From Gemmatimonadota bacterium (GTDB lineage: Bacteria; Gemmatimonadota; Gemmatimonadetes; Longimicrobiales; Gaopeijiaceae): a stretch of 33,341 bases of DNA. The number at the start of each line of letters is the position of its first letter. Within the stretch, counting starts at the first letter, position 1. Under the pieces are notes generated by a model. That model saw nothing but the letters and a program-made list of their open reading frames with translations. It was not told the origin of the DNA and did not search any database. Of this stretch, positions 14,221 through 21,272 are shown piece by piece. A program made the position numbers and the translations under genes. The stretch lies in the NCBI GenBank assembly GCA_009841165.1, contig VXMI01000028.1, forward strand, positions 1 to 33,341, written 5' to 3'.

Positions 14221-14397
14221 GCGCGGGGTGGTTGGAGGTGTTCTCAACGTGTGGGCCGCTGCTGAAGCTGGCAATAGCCTCGCCGCCTCGAATCGCCCAT
14301 CTATCGCAGACGTGGCAAGTTGCCGTCCGTAGTCGTGCGGACCAAGATGGGTATCGGCTATGGCGTCTGCCACGAATGACTCGGCCGGAGGCGACCG
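14221..14397. other. Divergent intergenic region, DUF2891 / permuted flavoprotein
   Basis: A gap of 177 bases that must hold promoters for both divergent units. GGAGG at 14387-14391 is a good ribosome-binding site for GTG 14398. I see no convincing -35/-10 pair and no strong palindrome. Confidence 0.4.
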
Positions 14398-15549
14398 GTG
14401 GACCGACGGACAATGCTGAAGATCGGCGGCATGAGCCTGATCGGGAGCGGGCTGGGCGCGTGCTCGGTGCGCTCGTGGTCCGTGGATCGCCCTTCGCTTG
14501 TCCTGGCTCCCGTCCGGGCGGATTGGGATCGTGTCATCCGCACCACCGTGGGGCTGCGGCCACATCGACCATCCGGGTTCGTGCTGCACGCCGAGCGGCT
14601 CGGCGGGACCACCGTGATCCACAACTACGGCCACGGCGGGGCGGGCATGTCGATTTCGTGGGGCACGGGACAGATGGCCGCCGAGATGGCCCTCGAACAC
14701 GACGGCCGCGCCGCGGCGGTGATCGGCTGCGGGGTCGTGGGGCTCACCTGCGCGCGTCAGCTCCAGCGCCGCGGGTTCCGGGTCACCATCTACGCCATGA
14801 CGGTGCCCCCGAACACGACCTCGAACATGTCACTCGCCGGCTTCACCCCCACGTCGGGGCTCGTCGACCGCGATCTCCGTACTCCCGGCTGGGACGCGCA
14901 GTTCCGCGAAGCCGTCGAGATTTCGTACCGCCAGCTGCAACTCCTGGTGGGGCGGGGATACGGCGTGTCGTGGATCCGCAGCTTTGCGCTGAGCAACAAC
15001 GAGCCCCGCGCGCGGCAACAAGACCGCGAGTCGGAGCGCCCACCGCTGCTGCCGGCGCACCTGCGCACGGGGACGACCCGACTCGGCCCCGGCGAGCACC
15101 CCTTCCCGACCCGCTACGCGACCCGGCGCACCCAGATGCGCATCGAGCCCTCGATCTACCTCGAGGCTCTCGTGCGCGACGTCATCGACTTCGGCGGGCG
15201 CATCGTCATCCGCAAGTTCACCGAGCCGAGCGAACTGGTGGCGCTGGAAGAGTCCCTCGTGATCAACTGCACGGGCCTCGGGGCGCGTGATCTCTTCGGT
15301 GACACCGAACTGGTCCCCGTGAAGGGCCAGCTGACGGTGCTGGTGCCCCAGCCCGAAGTCGACTACGGAACCTTCGGGGGACCCGGGCCATCCCGCGGCG
15401 GGCTCGGCATCCACATGCAGCCGCGCAGCGACGGGATCGTGCTGGGAGGTACCGCCGAGCGCGGGGAATGGTCGCTGGAACCCGACCAGGAGGCCCTGGA
15501 GCGCATCGTGATATCCCACCAGGCGCTTTTTTCCGCGATGCATGCCTGA
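14398..15549 (+). CDS. D-amino-acid-oxidase-like FAD flavoprotein with circularly permuted motif order; exported Tat/lipoprotein-like
   Basis: A 383-residue flavoprotein. The N-terminus DRRTMLKIGG resembles a twin-arginine signal, followed by a lipobox-like LGAC (Cys22). Residues 51-95 hold GLRPHRPSGF and VIHNYGHGGAGMSISWGT, which in D-amino-acid oxidases form the C-terminal FAD-binding end. Only after this comes the Rossmann motif AAVIGCGVVGL (~107-116), normally at the N-terminus, then NTTSNMSLAG, INCTG (289-293), VKGQL (~309) and VLGGTAERGEW (348-358). The chain stops where the GxRP block would normally follow. It probably oxidises an amine or D-amino acid with FAD and O2 or a quinone; the substrate is unknown. 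GTG 14398 has GGAGG six bases upstream. It leads a co-directional run of GcvT-like and CrtI-like genes. Confidence 0.85.
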   Translation: MDRRTMLKIGGMSLIGSGLGACSVRSWSVDRPSLVLAPVRADWDRVIRTTVGLRPHRPSGFVLHAERLGGTTVIHNYGHGGAGMSISWGTGQMAAEMALEHDGRAAAVIGCGVVGLTCARQLQRRGFRVTIYAMTVPPNTTSNMSLAGFTPTSGLVDRDLRTPGWDAQFREAVEISYRQLQLLVGRGYGVSWIRSFALSNNEPRARQQDRESERPPLLPAHLRTGTTRLGPGEHPFPTRYATRRTQMRIEPSIYLEALVRDVIDFGGRIVIRKFTEPSELVALEESLVINCTGLGARDLFGDTELVPVKGQLTVLVPQPEVDYGTFGGPGPSRGGLGIHMQPRSDGIVLGGTAERGEWSLEPDQEALERIVISHQALFSAMHA

Positions 15550-15579: not shown

Positions 15580-16797
15580 ATGCTCCTCGGGACCCCCTTT
15601 CACCCGCGCACCGCCGCCCTATGCGGCAGCCGCCGCTGGCGCAACTGGTCGGGGTACGCCGCGGCGCTCAGCTACGAGCCCGGCCACGAGTACGAGTACT
15701 ATGCAGTGCGCAGCGGCGCGGCGCTCTTCGACATCTCGCCGCTGCGCAAGTACGAGGTCACGGGCCCTGACGCGGCCGCGCTCGTGGACCGGGTGGTGAC
15801 CCGGAGCACGCTCGACTGCCCGGTGGGAAGGGTGCTCTACACGCCCTGGTGCGACGAGGCCGGCAAGCTGATCGATGACGGCACCGTGCAGCGCCTGAGC
15901 CCCGACACCTTCCGCATCACCGCCGCCGACCCGTGCCTGCGCTGGTTCCAGGATTGCGCGCTCGGAATGGACGCCACCGTCCGAGACATCTCGCTCGACC
16001 TCGCCGCGCTCGCGCTTCAGGGCCCAACCTCGCGGGACATCCTCGCCCGGCTTGTGACCGGCGCGGACATCGCTGAGCTCCCGTATTTCGCGCTGACCGA
16101 GTGCCACATCGGCGCGGCCCCGGTCACGATCACCCGCACGGGCTACACGGGCGACCTGGGCTACGAAATCTGGCTCGCGCCCGAGCACGCGCTCGCCGCG
16201 TGGGACGCGCTCATCGAGACCGGCCGCGGCTACGGGATCGCACCCACCGGGCTCGACGCGCTGGACGTGGCCCGCATCGAGGCCGGCCTGCTGCTCAAGG
16301 AGGTCGACTACGTGTCGAGCTGGACGGCGCTGATCGAGTCGCGCAAGTCGTCGCCGTACGAAGCGGGCCTCGGGTGGACGGTCCAGCCGCGGCCAAGCCG
16401 CGATTTCGTGGGCCAAAGGGCGCTCAAACGCGAAGCCGCCAACCCCTCGCAGTGGGCCCTGGCCGGCGTCGAGGCCGACTGGCCGGGCATCGAGAAGCGC
16501 TTCGCCGCCGTGGGCCTGCCGCCGCTGGTGGCCGGACGGGCCTCGCGCGACGCCGTCCCTATCTACGCAGGTGCGGCGCGCAAGGGCGGTCGCGCCGTCA
16601 GACAGATCGGCTACATCACCAGCGCCACCTTCTCGCCGATCCTCAAGAAGTACATCGCGCTCGCCACCATCCGCCGCGACTTCGCGGAACCGGGCAGCCC
16701 CATCGAGGTCGAACTGACCGTGGAGTTCGTGCGCCACAGGGTCCCGGCACGCGTGGTCCCGACGCCCTTCTTCGACCCGGCGCGCAAGCGCGGCTGA
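15580..16797 (+). CDS. GcvT-like aminomethyltransferase / folate-dependent demethylase
   Basis: A 405-residue protein of the glycine-cleavage T-protein superfamily. Seen in order: YYAVRSGAALFDISPLRKYEVTGPDA (~40-65), the folate-site segment GKLIDDGTVQRL with paired Asp99-Asp100, LALQGPTSRDIL, TRTGYTGDLGYEIW (186-198) and GLDALDVARIEAGLLL. A C-terminal barrel ends in GYITSATFSPILKKYIALA. Family members move a C1 unit from an aminomethyl, dimethylglycine, sarcosine or sulfonium donor to tetrahydrofolate. No gcvH or gcvP lies nearby, so glycine cleavage is unlikely here. It sits 30 bases after the permuted flavoprotein and 5 bases before a CrtI-like flavoprotein, so it is probably in one operon with them. 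The substrate is not known. Confidence 0.85.
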   Translation: MLLGTPFHPRTAALCGSRRWRNWSGYAAALSYEPGHEYEYYAVRSGAALFDISPLRKYEVTGPDAAALVDRVVTRSTLDCPVGRVLYTPWCDEAGKLIDDGTVQRLSPDTFRITAADPCLRWFQDCALGMDATVRDISLDLAALALQGPTSRDILARLVTGADIAELPYFALTECHIGAAPVTITRTGYTGDLGYEIWLAPEHALAAWDALIETGRGYGIAPTGLDALDVARIEAGLLLKEVDYVSSWTALIESRKSSPYEAGLGWTVQPRPSRDFVGQRALKREAANPSQWALAGVEADWPGIEKRFAAVGLPPLVAGRASRDAVPIYAGAARKGGRAVRQIGYITSATFSPILKKYIALATIRRDFAEPGSPIEVELTVEFVRHRVPARVVPTPFFDPARKRG

Positions 16798-16802
16798 GCG
16801 CA

Positions 16803-18443
16803 ATGACCCGCAAATACGACGTGATCGTCATCGGCGGCGGCCACAACGGCCTCGTGCACGCCGCCTACCTGGCGCGCGCCGGCCTCGACGTGTGCGTGCT
16901 CGAACAGCGCCCTCTCGTCGGCGGCGCCACCGTCACCGAGGAGATTTTCCCGGGCTTCAGGTACAGCGTGTTCTCGTACGTGGTCAGCCTGATGCGCCCC
17001 GACATCATCCGCGAACTCGACCTCCCCCGTCACGGGCTCGCAATCCTGCCACTCGAAAGCACCCTCACCCCGCTGCCGGATGGCGACCGCCTCTACCGCG
17101 ACGCCGACCACCACCGCACCTGGCGCGAGATCGCGCGCTTCTCGATTCGCGACGCCGAGGCCTACAACGAATACGGCCGGTCGCTCTTCTACATGGCGCG
17201 CGCCGTGAAGCACCTCCTCGGCATCGCCCCTCCCGATCCCGCACGGCTGGGTCCGCGCGACATCCGCGGCCTGCTCGGCCTCGCCCGACACTTCCTCGAC
17301 CTCGAACCCGACCAGCTGCACATGCTCGTCAAGCTCATGACGATGAGCGCCGCCGACTTCGTCGACGAGTGGTTCGAGACCGACGTGCTCAAGGCCACGC
17401 TGTCCGCCAGCGGGATCATCGGCACCTTCCTCGGCCCGCGCTCGCCGGGCACCGCCTACGTCCTGCTGCACCACTACATGGGCGAGATCGACGGCCACTT
17501 CCGGGCGTGGGGCTTCGCCAAGGGCGGAACCGGAGCCGTGGCCAACGCGATCGCTTCCGCCGCGCGCGAGGCGGGAGCCGAGATCCGCACCGATGCGCCG
17601 GTGGCACGGGCGTTGGTGAAGAACGGGCGTGTCAATGGCGTGGCGCTCGCCAACGGCGACGAATTGCACGCCAGCGTGGTCTCCTCCAGCCTCGACCCGC
17701 ACCGCACCTTCCTCGACCTCGTCGACGAGGACGCGCTCCCCGACGACCTGCTCAGCGCCGTCCGCGCCTACCGCTTCCGCGGCTCCTCCGGCAAGGTCAA
17801 CCTGGCGCTCGACGCCGCCCCCGACTTCACCTGCATGCCCGGCCACGGTCCGCACCTGCGGGGCGCCGTCTCGATCAGCCCGTCCATCGACTACCTCGAA
17901 CGCGCCTACGACGACGCCAGGTACGGCGACTTCTCCCGCGAACCCTACATCGACATCGTCATCCCCTCGGCGATCGATCCAGCCATGGCGCCGCCCGGCA
18001 AGCACGTCATGTCGTGCTTCGTGCAGTACGCGCCCTACGAGCTGCGCGAAGGCACCTGGGACGAAAAACGCGAGGCCTTCGGCGACACCGTGGTCGACAC
18101 CCTGGCGCGCTACATCCCCAACATCAGGGACATCATCCTGCACCGTCAGGTCGTCACGCCGCTCGACATCGAGCGCACCACGGGCCTCACCCAGGGCAAC
18201 ATCTTCCAGGGCGAGCTGACCCCGTCGCAGCTCTTCTTCCTCCGGCCGGCCGCCGGGTACGCGGGCTATCGGACGCCGGTGCGCGGCTACTACCAGTGCG
18301 GATCGGGCACGCACCCGGGCGGCGGCATCATGGGCGCGCCCGGCAAGCTGGCGGCCGGCAGAGTGCTGGCGGACTTGCAGCGGGGGCTCGGCAGGCGACG
18401 CGGACGGATCTCCACGTCCGGGCCGGGGAGGAGGGGGAGGTGA
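16803..18443 (+). CDS. CrtI/PYROXD2-like FAD-dependent oxidoreductase (first of pair)
   Basis: A 546-residue flavoprotein of the phytoene-desaturase-like superfamily. The dinucleotide motif VIVIGGGHNGLVHAAYLARAG is at residues ~7-27, followed by LEQRPLVGGATVTEEIFPGF. The substrate region includes WGFAKGGTGAVANAIASAA. The C-terminal FAD signature is YYQCGSGTHPGGGIMGAPG. No carotenoid-pathway gene is nearby, and the sequence resembles PYROXD2-type proteins more than carotenoid desaturases. I infer an amino- or acyl-group dehydrogenase linked to the GcvT enzymes; the substrate is unknown. No signal peptide is present. ATG 16803 starts 5 bases after the preceding stop. Its own stop is inside the GTGA overlap with the next gene. 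An Arg/Gly-rich tail of ~20 residues follows the conserved end. Confidence 0.88.
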   Translation: MTRKYDVIVIGGGHNGLVHAAYLARAGLDVCVLEQRPLVGGATVTEEIFPGFRYSVFSYVVSLMRPDIIRELDLPRHGLAILPLESTLTPLPDGDRLYRDADHHRTWREIARFSIRDAEAYNEYGRSLFYMARAVKHLLGIAPPDPARLGPRDIRGLLGLARHFLDLEPDQLHMLVKLMTMSAADFVDEWFETDVLKATLSASGIIGTFLGPRSPGTAYVLLHHYMGEIDGHFRAWGFAKGGTGAVANAIASAAREAGAEIRTDAPVARALVKNGRVNGVALANGDELHASVVSSSLDPHRTFLDLVDEDALPDDLLSAVRAYRFRGSSGKVNLALDAAPDFTCMPGHGPHLRGAVSISPSIDYLERAYDDARYGDFSREPYIDIVIPSAIDPAMAPPGKHVMSCFVQYAPYELREGTWDEKREAFGDTVVDTLARYIPNIRDIILHRQVVTPLDIERTTGLTQGNIFQGELTPSQLFFLRPAAGYAGYRTPVRGYYQCGSGTHPGGGIMGAPGKLAAGRVLADLQRGLGRRRGRISTSGPGRRGR

Positions 18444-20044
18444 AACAGTACGACGCGGTCGTCGTGGGGGGCGGTCACAACGCACTGGTGACGGCCGCCC
18501 GGCTCGCTTGCGAGAAGTGGAAGGTCCTCGTGCTGGAGCGGCGTGCGGTTCTGGGGGGCGCGGCCTCGACGGATGAGATCTTTCCCGGCTGCGCCGTCAA
18601 CGTGGCCGCGCAGGACGCGGGACTCTTCCCCGCCGGCCTCGCCGCCGACCTGGACCTCGCCGCCCACGGCCTCGAGTGGGTCCGTCCTCCCGCGCTGGCC
18701 ACCTCGCTGACCGGTGGCGGCGAGGCGCTCACCCTGTGGCGGGACCCCGCGCGCACCATTGACGAGATCGCCCGTCACAACCGCGCCGACGCGGCCCGCT
18801 TCCCCGACTGGGCCGACCACCTGCGCACCATGGCGCGGGTGTTGCGCGTCGCCCTCGACCACCCGGCCCCCGCCCCGCACGACATGACCAAGCGGGAGCG
18901 GCTCCGCCTTCTCCGCCCCCTCATCCAGGCGGGCCGGCTGGGCAAGCGCACGGTCGTGGAACTGCTGCGCGTGGCGCCGCTCCCGGCCCGCGACCTCCTC
19001 GACGACTGGTTCGAGAGCGGTGCCCTCAAGGGAATGCTCGCCACCACCGCGCTGGCGGGCTCCCGTCACGGCCCGAGCGCCATGGGCGGCGCCCTGCGGA
19101 TGCTGTACCACGCCACCGGGCGCGAACCCCACGGCTTCCGCTCGTCGGCGTTCGCCAAGGGCGGGATCGGGGCGCTCTCGGCTGCACTGGCCGGGGCGGC
19201 GCGGGCCCACGGGGCCGAGGTGCGCACCGCGACCGAGGTCGAGCGCATTCTCGTCGACGACGGCGCCGCGACCGGGGTCGCTCTGGCCGACGGCGAAGAG
19301 ATCGCCGCCCGGTGCGTGATCTCGGGCGCCGATCCCCACCGCACCTTCTTCCGGCTGGTGGGCGCGCCGCGGCTGGGCCCCGAGTTCAACCGCAAGGTCG
19401 CCAACATCCAGCTGCGCGGGACCACCGCGATCCTGCACCTGCTGCTCGACGGGCTCCCACCGCTCCCGGACGCGGCCGAGCGCCTTGCCGGCCACACGCT
19501 TGTCGCCCCCACGCTGGACTACCTCGAACGCGCCGCCGACGACGCCAAGTACGGCCGCGCCTCCGACCGCCCCCACCTCGACATGGTGATCCCAACGCTA
19601 CACGACCCCGCGCTCGCGCCCGCCGGCCACCATTTGGCCTCGATCCAGATCCGCTACGCCCCGTACCACCTCCGCGACGGCAGCTGGGAGGACGATGCGA
19701 CCCGCGACGCCCTCCTCGCCACCGCACTCCATGTCCTCGACGACTTCCTCCCTGGCATGCGCGACCGCATCGTCGACCACCGCCTGCTCACGCCGCTCGA
19801 CCTCGAGACCGAGCTCGGTCTCACCGCCGGCGACGAGTACCATGGCCAGATGGGACTCGACCAGATGCTCTTCATGCGCCCGATCGCGGGTTGGGCGCGG
19901 TACAGGACGCCGGTCGAGGGGTTGTTCCTGTGCGGCTCGGGGTGCCATCCGGGGGGCGGCGTGACGGGAGGACCGGGCCGTCTTGCCGCAGGCGCGATCT
20001 TGCGCGAAGGGAAGCCGGTGGCGCGATTGAGCGGGCGCTCGTGA
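18440..20044 (+). CDS. CrtI/PYROXD2-like FAD-dependent oxidoreductase (second of pair)
   Basis: A 534-residue paralogue of the preceding flavoprotein. It has the N-terminal VVVGGGHNALVTAARLA, LERRAVLGGAASTDEIFPGC, the central FAKGGIGALSAALAGAA, and the C-terminal LCGSGCHPGGGVTGGPGRLAAG. Both proteins share SxxLDPHRTFxxLV-like and DYLERAxDDAxYG blocks, so they arose by duplication but have diverged widely. A heterodimer is possible, as tandem pairs of this type with overlapping genes suggest fixed stoichiometry; this is an inference. GTG 18440 overlaps the upstream stop as GTGA and has a G/A-rich ribosome-binding site (GGAGGAGGGGGAG), which sets this start. Longer in-frame upstream reading is a shadow of the previous gene. 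Confidence 0.88.
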   Translation: MKQYDAVVVGGGHNALVTAARLACEKWKVLVLERRAVLGGAASTDEIFPGCAVNVAAQDAGLFPAGLAADLDLAAHGLEWVRPPALATSLTGGGEALTLWRDPARTIDEIARHNRADAARFPDWADHLRTMARVLRVALDHPAPAPHDMTKRERLRLLRPLIQAGRLGKRTVVELLRVAPLPARDLLDDWFESGALKGMLATTALAGSRHGPSAMGGALRMLYHATGREPHGFRSSAFAKGGIGALSAALAGAARAHGAEVRTATEVERILVDDGAATGVALADGEEIAARCVISGADPHRTFFRLVGAPRLGPEFNRKVANIQLRGTTAILHLLLDGLPPLPDAAERLAGHTLVAPTLDYLERAADDAKYGRASDRPHLDMVIPTLHDPALAPAGHHLASIQIRYAPYHLRDGSWEDDATRDALLATALHVLDDFLPGMRDRIVDHRLLTPLDLETELGLTAGDEYHGQMGLDQMLFMRPIAGWARYRTPVEGLFLCGSGCHPGGGVTGGPGRLAAGAILREGKPVARLSGRS

Positions 20045-20055
20045 AAACGTTCACA
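20040..20055. promoter_or_regulatory. CRP/FNR-like palindromic operator
   Basis: CGTGA-AAACGT-TCACA fits the CRP consensus TGTGA-N6-TCACA at nine of ten arm positions. The symmetric core is GTGAA-AACG-TTCAC. It overlaps the stop codon of the second CrtI-like gene and ends 53 bases before the DmdA-like start, a good place for a regulator of that gene. The binding protein is not known. Confidence 0.45.
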
Positions 20056-20069
20056 ATGTCAAACCCCAA

Positions 20070-20092
20070 ATCCTCAACCCCCGATCCTCAAC
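20070..20092 (+). repeat. 9-bp direct repeat in the leader of the DmdA-like gene
   Basis: ATCCTCAAC occurs at 20070-20078 and again at 20084-20092, 14 bases apart, between the CRP-like site and the GGAG ribosome-binding site (20097-20100). It could be a regulator half-site pair or a trace of slippage. Confidence 0.35.
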
Positions 20093-20108
20093 ACCCGGAG
20101 ATACATGC

Positions 20109-21272
20109 ATGACCACCTTCGACATGGCCCTTATCCAGCGTGGGGCCCGGCTTCGCCGTTCGCCCTATTTCGACGCCACGCTGCGCGCCGGCTGCCGCGC
20201 CTACACGGTCTACAACCACATGTTTCTGCCCACGCGGTACGACGACCTGCACGCCGAGTACGAGCGGCTGCGGACCGGGGTCACGGTGTGGGACGTGAGC
20301 GTGGAGCGGCAGGTCGAGATCACCGGGCCGGACGCGTTCGCGTTCACGAACATGCTGACGCCGCGCGACCTGTCGAAGTGCGCGGTCGGCCAGGGCAAGT
20401 ACGTGCTGATCACGGCCGAGGACGGGGGCATCGTGAACGATCCCGTGCTGCTGCGGCTCGGCGAAAACCACTTCTGGCTGGCTCTGGCGGACAGCGACGT
20501 GCTGCTGTGGGCGAAGGGGGTGGCGCTGAATTCGGGGCTGGACGTGCGGCTGTGCGAGCCCGATGTGTCGCCGATGCAGGTGCAGGGGCCGAAGTCGAAG
20601 GAGGTCGTGCGCCGTCTGTTCGGGGAGGGGGTCGCGGGGCTGCGCTACTACTGGTTCGCGGAGACCGACCTGGACGGCATCCCGGTGGTGGTGACCCGGA
20701 CCGGGTGGAGCGGCGAGGTCGGCTACGAGATCTACCTGCGGGACGGGAGCCAGGGGATGGAGTTGTGGGACAGGGTGATGGAAGCGGGCGCCGATCTGGC
20801 TATTGCGCCGACTGGGCCATCGGACATCCGGCGGATCGAGGCGGGAATCCTGAACTACGGGATCGACATGACGCTGGATACGAATCCGTACGAGGTCGGG
20901 CTGGGGTGGCAGGTGGACCACGGCCAGGAGGGGGGCTTCATCGGGCGTGAGGCGCTGGCGCGGATCGCGGCGGAGGGACCGCGGCGGCTGTTGGCGGGGG
21001 TCGAGATCGCGGGCGCACCGCTCGACCTGAACATGACGCGGTGGCCGGTGTGGGCGGACGGGGCGGGGGGCGAAGGCGGCGAGGCGATCGGCTTCGTCAG
21101 CTCGGCGGTGTGGTCGCCGCGGCTGAAGCGGAATATCGGCTACGCCATGGTGCCGATGCCGCTCGCGGAGTTGGGGACGCGGCTGCGGGTGGCCACGCCG
21201 GACGGGGATCGGGAAGCTGCCGTGGTACGCAAGCCTTTCGTGGATCCGGACAAGGACATTCCGAAGTCGTAG
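20109..21272 (+). CDS. DmdA-like folate-dependent demethylase (GcvT family)
   Basis: A 387-residue protein closely resembling the dimethylsulfoniopropionate demethylase (DmdA) branch of the GcvT family. It has LRRSPYFDATLRAG, AYTVYNHMFLPT, WDVSVERQVEITGPDA (61-76), LTPRDLSKCAVGQGKYV, GGIVNDPVLLRL (Asp111), LADSDVLLWAKGVAL, EPDVSPMQVQGPKS, and at the end NPYEVGLGW and VRKPFVDPDKDIPKS. True DmdA usually reads SGYSxQGG-type where this one reads TRTGWSGEVGYEIYL, as in amine-demethylating GcvT proteins. I therefore call it DmdA-like and do not assign the substrate. It would transfer a methyl group to tetrahydrofolate in the cytoplasm. GGAG lies 8 bases before ATG 20109. It follows the flavoprotein pair after 64 bases containing a CRP-like site. 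Confidence 0.82.
   Translation: MTTFDMALIQRGARLRRSPYFDATLRAGCRAYTVYNHMFLPTRYDDLHAEYERLRTGVTVWDVSVERQVEITGPDAFAFTNMLTPRDLSKCAVGQGKYVLITAEDGGIVNDPVLLRLGENHFWLALADSDVLLWAKGVALNSGLDVRLCEPDVSPMQVQGPKSKEVVRRLFGEGVAGLRYYWFAETDLDGIPVVVTRTGWSGEVGYEIYLRDGSQGMELWDRVMEAGADLAIAPTGPSDIRRIEAGILNYGIDMTLDTNPYEVGLGWQVDHGQEGGFIGREALARIAAEGPRRLLAGVEIAGAPLDLNMTRWPVWADGAGGEGGEAIGFVSSAVWSPRLKRNIGYAMVPMPLAELGTRLRVATPDGDREAAVVRKPFVDPDKDIPKS

Follow-up and report, generated by a model that had tools for sequence, protein, structure and literature searches.

A protein family of the D-amino-acid oxidase fold with swapped segment order and a putative export signal

D-Amino-acid oxidase (DAAO) is a textbook flavoenzyme that is used in biosensors and in antibiotic production. 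A gene on a Gemmatimonadota contig (the window, the entire 33,341-nucleotide stretch of DNA analysed here) raises the question of how a protein with DAAO motifs comes to carry its C-terminal elements in front of its Rossmann motif, behind what resembles an export signal. Our reading, to which we assign a probability of roughly 0.8, is that the gene product is a natural circular permutant with the fold shared by DAAO and D-aspartate oxidase (DASPO), most likely a periplasmic, lipid-anchored flavoenzyme of the DAAO type. The analysis itself shows that the segments are homologous to DAAO/DASPO and swapped in order, that the body is predicted to take their fold, and that the family is broad and forms a single clade; that the enzyme is exported, anchored to lipid and binds FAD, and what kind of substrate and chemistry it has, are inferences.

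The coding sequence (14398..15549; this and the following features lie on the + strand) specifies a circularly permuted DAAO-type FAD oxidoreductase of 383 amino acids that matches Pfam DAO (PF01266, E 4e-34) and has full-length homologues of the same order. Its reading frame is intact, remaining open from the GTG start at 14398 to the stop that ends at 15549. A GGAGG ribosome-binding site, read in the sequence, lies six bases 5' of the GTG (14387..14391), an arrangement that recurs upstream of two relatives (L004 and L006). Residues 1-22 (14398..14463) form a twin-arginine signal (R3 R4) with a lipobox-like LGAC end (Cys22), recognized by pattern only. The moved block follows (residues 43-100, 14524..14697); it comprises the GLRPHR strand (GLRPHR at residues 52-57), the HNYGHGG loop and the next helix, is homologous to DASPO 280-336 and DAAO 274-330, and is C-terminal in ordinary DAAOs. 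Within it, VIHNYGHGGAGMSISWG spans residues 73-89 and YGHGGAG residues 77-83. A new junction (residues 99-104, 14692..14709) connects the formerly C-terminal helix with the formerly N-terminal strand and opens the DAAO body (residues 104-380, 14707..15537), which contains the Rossmann GCGVVG (residues 110-115, 14725..14742), TTSN (14815..14826) and, as further landmarks, NCTGLGAR, GQL, LGGTAERGEW and the last helix. Upstream lies a DUF2891 gene on the opposite strand and 30 bp downstream a GCV_T gene. Since neither neighbor is a DAAO gene, a gene-boundary artefact or two DAAO genes run together can be ruled out.

A phmmer search of PDB sequences returned two non-collinear matches for each DAAO/DASPO chain. 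Against human D-aspartate oxidase, residues 103-382 of the query matched chain residues 12-275 (E 1.2e-15) and residues 47-99 matched chain residues 280-335 (E 4.4e-6). A profile of 87 relatives strengthened both pieces, to E 7.8e-35 for the body and 9.7e-11 for the block, and the ordinary order was found in all DAAO/DASPO alignments listed from the profile search. The body (residues ~104-380) thus corresponds to DAAO/DASPO from the N-terminus to ~269 and the block (~45-100) to ~274-336, so that the order of the two is swapped. In a rotation test, the window protein was cut at every third residue and aligned to four canonical-order bacterial DAAOs with Smith-Waterman and semi-global scoring; these replaced HMMER local scores, which were uninformative for the scan since the variable middle interrupts the local match. 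The score peaked at residues 99-105 against all four canonical proteins, rising for one of them (L021) from 236 in the natural order to 330 when rotated at 102-105. The moved block gained 95 Smith-Waterman units, whereas none of 500 shuffled versions of it gained more than 28, and rotation of one canonical protein against another brought no gain. When a canonical protein served as query, permuted proteins were matched in two swapped pieces.

These results fulfil what is expected of a natural permutant: both segments are homologous to the known enzyme, their order is swapped, the old termini are joined, and the whole chain is accounted for. The ordinary DAAO order, with the Rossmann motif first, is absent, and consequently we class the window protein as a permuted variant and not as an ordinary DAAO/DASPO member. 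The sequence-only reading had placed the GLRPHR/HNYGHGG block ahead of the Rossmann motif and the remaining landmarks in DAAO order; the landmarks were located as it stated, and the phmmer, profile and rotation results establish the swap. In the event we envisage, the last quarter of the chain, from the substrate-arginine strand through the HNYGHGG loop to the next helix, would long ago have been shifted ahead of the Rossmann strand; a short linker would have joined the old termini, and the new ones would have arisen in the loop behind the helix after LGGT...EW.

An AlphaFold2 model built with 87 homologues reached a mean pLDDT of 90.5 and a pTM of 0.87; an earlier AlphaFold model made with 17 close homologues was poor (pLDDT 57.5) and was discarded. 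Foldseek ranked human DASPO first (E 3.9e-16), followed by other DAAO and DASPO structures. VIA-align superposed model residues 101-380 on human DASPO (6rkf) with Z 22.2 and residues 104-380 on residues 1-269 of pig DAAO (1kif) with Z 21.8 and an rmsd of 2.7 over 256 residues. According to the model, then, the flavin domain and sheet of the DAAO/DASPO fold are present in residues 104-380. Glycine oxidase ThiO and other enzymes of Pfam DAO (PF01266) belong to the wider fold family and are a weaker structural match than DAAO/DASPO (Z ~17). Identity with ThiO was rejected, the score of 43.5 bits being far below the NCBIfam cut-off of 250.8.

A DAAO fold with permuted connectivity had been proposed from the sequence, and the model upholds this for the body, which superposes, and only in part for the block. 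Residues 46-98 lie outside the aligned range of the sequential VIA-align superposition. Their predicted elements (strands 46-56, 62-68 and 71-77, helix 80-98) fit the DAAO C-terminal block in strand-strand-strand-helix order and in homology, with pLDDT 96-99 (ten-residue blocks over 41-100 average 96-99); where they sit in three dimensions is inferred from homology and model confidence and not from superposition. Between the old C-terminal helix, which runs to residue 98, and the Rossmann strand, which begins at residue 105, lies a new junction of about six residues, which is modelled at pLDDT 98-99 over residues 91-110 and is variable in length and sequence among homologues. The chain had also been said to end after LGGTAERGEW and one more helix, and the model places this final helix at residues 364-379.

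R54, the counterpart of the catalytic Arg283 of mammalian DAAO, is invariant in 135 of 135 aligned sequences, as are H75, H79, G81 and G83. The GxRPxR and YGHGGxG elements of bacterial DAAOs are present as GLRPHR and YGHGGAG, and the Rossmann GxGxxG as GCGVVG, in which G110, G112 and G115 are invariant. The window protein thus resembles human D-aspartate oxidase (6rkf) and mammalian DAAO (1kif, 2du8) in the fold of residues 104-380 (Z ~22), in the GLRPxR and YGHG motifs, and in the catalytic arginine, but differs from them in the order of its segments and in the histidine that its subclade carries at the Tyr228 position. From this conservation we infer, without activity or FAD data, that general DAAO chemistry is retained. 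R54 would hold the carboxylate of a D-amino-acid-like substrate that would be oxidized in the periplasm, a hydride would pass to FAD, and the imino product would hydrolyse to a keto acid and ammonia.

The alignment column of Tyr228, the substrate-binding tyrosine of mammalian DAAO, holds Tyr in 75 and His in 39 of the 135 sequences. The window protein has His339 (15412..15414) and lacks the expected tyrosine. This histidine covers most of the window subclade (47 proteins) and occurs outside it in only one other sequence. In most of the same subclade, Phe replaces the Trp of most relatives at position 149. The two replacements together leave room for a substrate other than a standard D-amino acid, and they suggest, from alignment columns alone, an altered substrate preference in the window subclade.

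No conserved neighbor pointing to the substrate was found across phyla, and neighboring genes differ between phyla. In Sphingopyxis (L068:7213-10365) the permuted gene sits between hslV and hslU, and about a dozen sphingomonad loci have similar flanks. Two local associations bear on the chemistry. In Kozakia baliensis (L134:3866-5526) a cytochrome c gene begins six bases after the permuted gene, and at five marine Gammaproteobacteria loci a cytochrome-c-domain protein is encoded 0.1 to 2.2 kb downstream, with PQQ dehydrogenases near some of them. These neighbors would suit a permuted DAAO-fold dehydrogenase whose reduced FAD passes its electrons to a periplasmic cytochrome c or into the respiratory chain and not to O2. 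However, no cytochrome c gene adjoins the window copy or most homologues, and the nearest solved relatives are oxidases; we consider this alternative unlikely, though far from negligible. The second association is a window cluster (15580-21272, + strand) that starts 30 bp downstream with GCV_T, continues with two CrtI/amine-oxidase-like flavoproteins and a second GCV_T, and looks like a catabolic operon. The cluster is kept in five relatives (L031, L032, L034, L037 and L061). Its proximity and repetition, together with the histidine that replaces Tyr228 in most of the subclade, could mean that the substrate has shifted to N-methylated or other amino compounds, in a demethylation pathway shared with the downstream GCV_T and FAD proteins. 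Such a shift is doubtful given that the permuted enzyme is predicted to be periplasmic, whereas GCV_T proteins are expected in the cytoplasm, and that a copy close in sequence (L033) lacks the cluster. The cytochrome c and PQQ neighbors and the GCV_T cluster nevertheless keep both possibilities alive beside our preferred reading of a DAAO-type enzyme.

The Tat-like and lipobox-like N-terminus noted in the window protein proved to be a rule of the family. Export signals were scored by pattern match (twin arginine, hydrophobic stretch and lipobox cysteine) and not with a trained signal-peptide predictor. The window protein meets the full Tat-lipoprotein pattern. A Tat-like signal occurs in 118 of the 123 permuted proteins with a scorable N-terminus, 106 of which also have the lipobox cysteine, and in the alignment R3 and R4 are found in 128 and C22 in 121 of the 135 sequences. 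No signal was present in a rhizobial and Nonomuraea group (L131-L133 and L176), nor in L177, in which the upstream part is missing from the reading frame. Export therefore appears to be general in the family with the exception of the rhizobial/actinomycete subclade. Eukaryotic DAAO and DASPO enzymes carry a peroxisomal tail; the permuted family has the Tat/lipobox signal instead. Judging by these patterns, in most members the folded, FAD-loaded enzyme probably leaves the cytoplasm and is anchored in the periplasm as a lipoprotein, both export and lipidation being inferred. The signal-less copies are found in Rhizobium, Bradyrhizobium and Nonomuraea (L131:3995-5056, L133:3929-4981, L132 and L176), and the rhizobial ones are flanked by a berberine-bridge-type FAD enzyme and a thiamine-diphosphate enzyme.

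Homologues of the same order, whose existence the sequence-only reading had proposed as a check, form one family, mostly with export predicted, of 134 distinct proteins in several phyla (Gemmatimonadota, Acidobacteriota, Pseudomonadota, Verrucomicrobiota and one actinomycete), including a copy in a single-contig genome (G001). Aligned members are 40-97% identical to the window protein. Among 40 near genomes searched, 16 others carry the full-length permuted form, one of them in a single contig. A scan of named genomes gave at least 80 loci, with the permuted order collinear in 80 of the 80 listed, in genera such as Sphingopyxis, Sphingomonas, Novosphingobium, Hyphomonas, Henriciella, Dokdonella, Edaphobacter and Luteolibacter. 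In surveys with stated cut-offs, full-length permuted copies occur in 41 of 200 Gemmatimonadota genomes (counted manually) and permuted copies in 10 of 149 Acidobacteriota genomes (canonical order in six), in 20 of 398 Pseudomonadota genomes (20 of 20 collinear with the permuted order), and in 2 of 145 genomes of the phylum of Luteolibacter. A larger Acidobacteriota search gave up to 13 permuted versus 8 canonical, three by match pattern only. No canonical DAAO was found in the 398 Pseudomonadota genomes; the weak canonical-profile matches in three Pseudomonadota genomes (L195-L197) are without the YGHGG motif and resemble other members of the DAO family. We saw no genome with both orders, in searches limited to the best-scoring candidates of each genome. 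More distant members come from plasmid records (Niveispirillum, Rhizobium, Bradyrhizobium, Kozakia and the actinomycete Nonomuraea) and share about 33% identity with a Sphingomonas copy; viral contigs yielded no relative.

In a tree built from the window protein, the 134 distinct permuted homologues, all rotated, and 12 canonical bacterial DAAOs, the separation of the two orders is complete, with a support of 1.0 on the canonical side. The canonical-order bacterial DAAOs (L020-L025 and L146-L151) share GxRPxR and YGHGGxG with the window protein and are ~26-35% identical to it after rotation; they differ in having the ordinary order and in forming a separate clade. Residues 101-381 of the window protein are matched by structures of glycine oxidase, sarcosine oxidase and glycerol-3-phosphate dehydrogenase starting in the N-terminal region of each. 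Consequently the canonical order is common to the wider superfamily, and it is probably ancestral, with the permutation derived, most simply once. The claim of a single origin is provisional because the canonical sample came from Gemmatimonadota and Acidobacteriota only, without eukaryotic or actinobacterial canonical sequences. No tandem-duplication intermediate with two blocks was present among the fetched ORFs. The opposite polarity, in which the permuted order came first and gave rise to the ordinary one, is compatible with the rotated tree, where both forms are single clades and which alone gives no direction, but it conflicts with the order common to the wider superfamily and is very improbable. 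An origin of the swap in frameshift, misassembly or fusion of two adjacent DAAO genes, the outcome that would have overturned the sequence-only reading, has only the fragmented window assembly (239 contigs) in its favor and is refuted by the 134 distinct same-order homologues (including the single-contig genome and named isolates), by the two-piece canonical matches, by the absence of two block copies from any ORF and by the unrelated neighbors, since it would require one error common to all homologous assemblies.

The permuted family is large and old and not a single odd gene. Our search of the literature, confined to open-access sources, retrieved no relevant paper on a permuted DAAO, a Tat-exported DAAO or the natural permutation of a flavoenzyme; as far as we found, the permuted exported family is apparently undescribed, although an earlier description is possible. 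Canonical-order enzymes of Rubrobacter, Streptomyces and Arthrobacter have been described along with the GxRPxR and YGHGGxG elements of bacterial DAAOs, and just over ten bacterial genes had been identified, all in one group printed as "Acinetobacteria" (PMC9844085, 2022). At a frequency of ~5% among the Pseudomonadota genomes sampled and 20% among those of Gemmatimonadota, the permuted, putatively exported branch would account for some of this apparent scarcity, since full-length searches are broken up by the swapped order and the copies are named only 'FAD-dependent oxidoreductase'. The family offers a clean natural experiment in how a cofactor-binding fold survives relocated termini, and a place to seek periplasmic breakdown of D-amino acids. 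A wider proposal is that this large, old and unrecognized family supplies most enzymes of this type in Pseudomonadota and is also common among Gemmatimonadota and Acidobacteriota, that it is a periplasmic lipoprotein, and that some members reduce cytochrome c and not O2. We regard the proposal as a whole as possible but somewhat unlikely; if true, its cytochrome-c-reducing members would represent a novel type of periplasmic D-amino-acid dehydrogenase.

Several individual copies deserve mention. One Acidobacteriota genome (G265) has four permuted copies (L143, L153, L157 and L158). In another single-contig genome (G021) the permuted gene (L019, 1967894-1968232) is interrupted at the Rossmann strand by an unrelated transposase-family-like coding sequence and looks broken. 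A Mesorhizobium copy (L135:2750-3813) is split into two annotated FAD-dependent oxidoreductase genes, with a frame disruption in the Rossmann motif. Three records titled Gammaproteobacteria or Acidimicrobiia (L032, L033 and L055) hold copies nested among those of Gemmatimonadota or Acidobacteriota, and in the phylum search the L055 genome behaves like one of the Acidobacteriota; some of the record names therefore look wrong.
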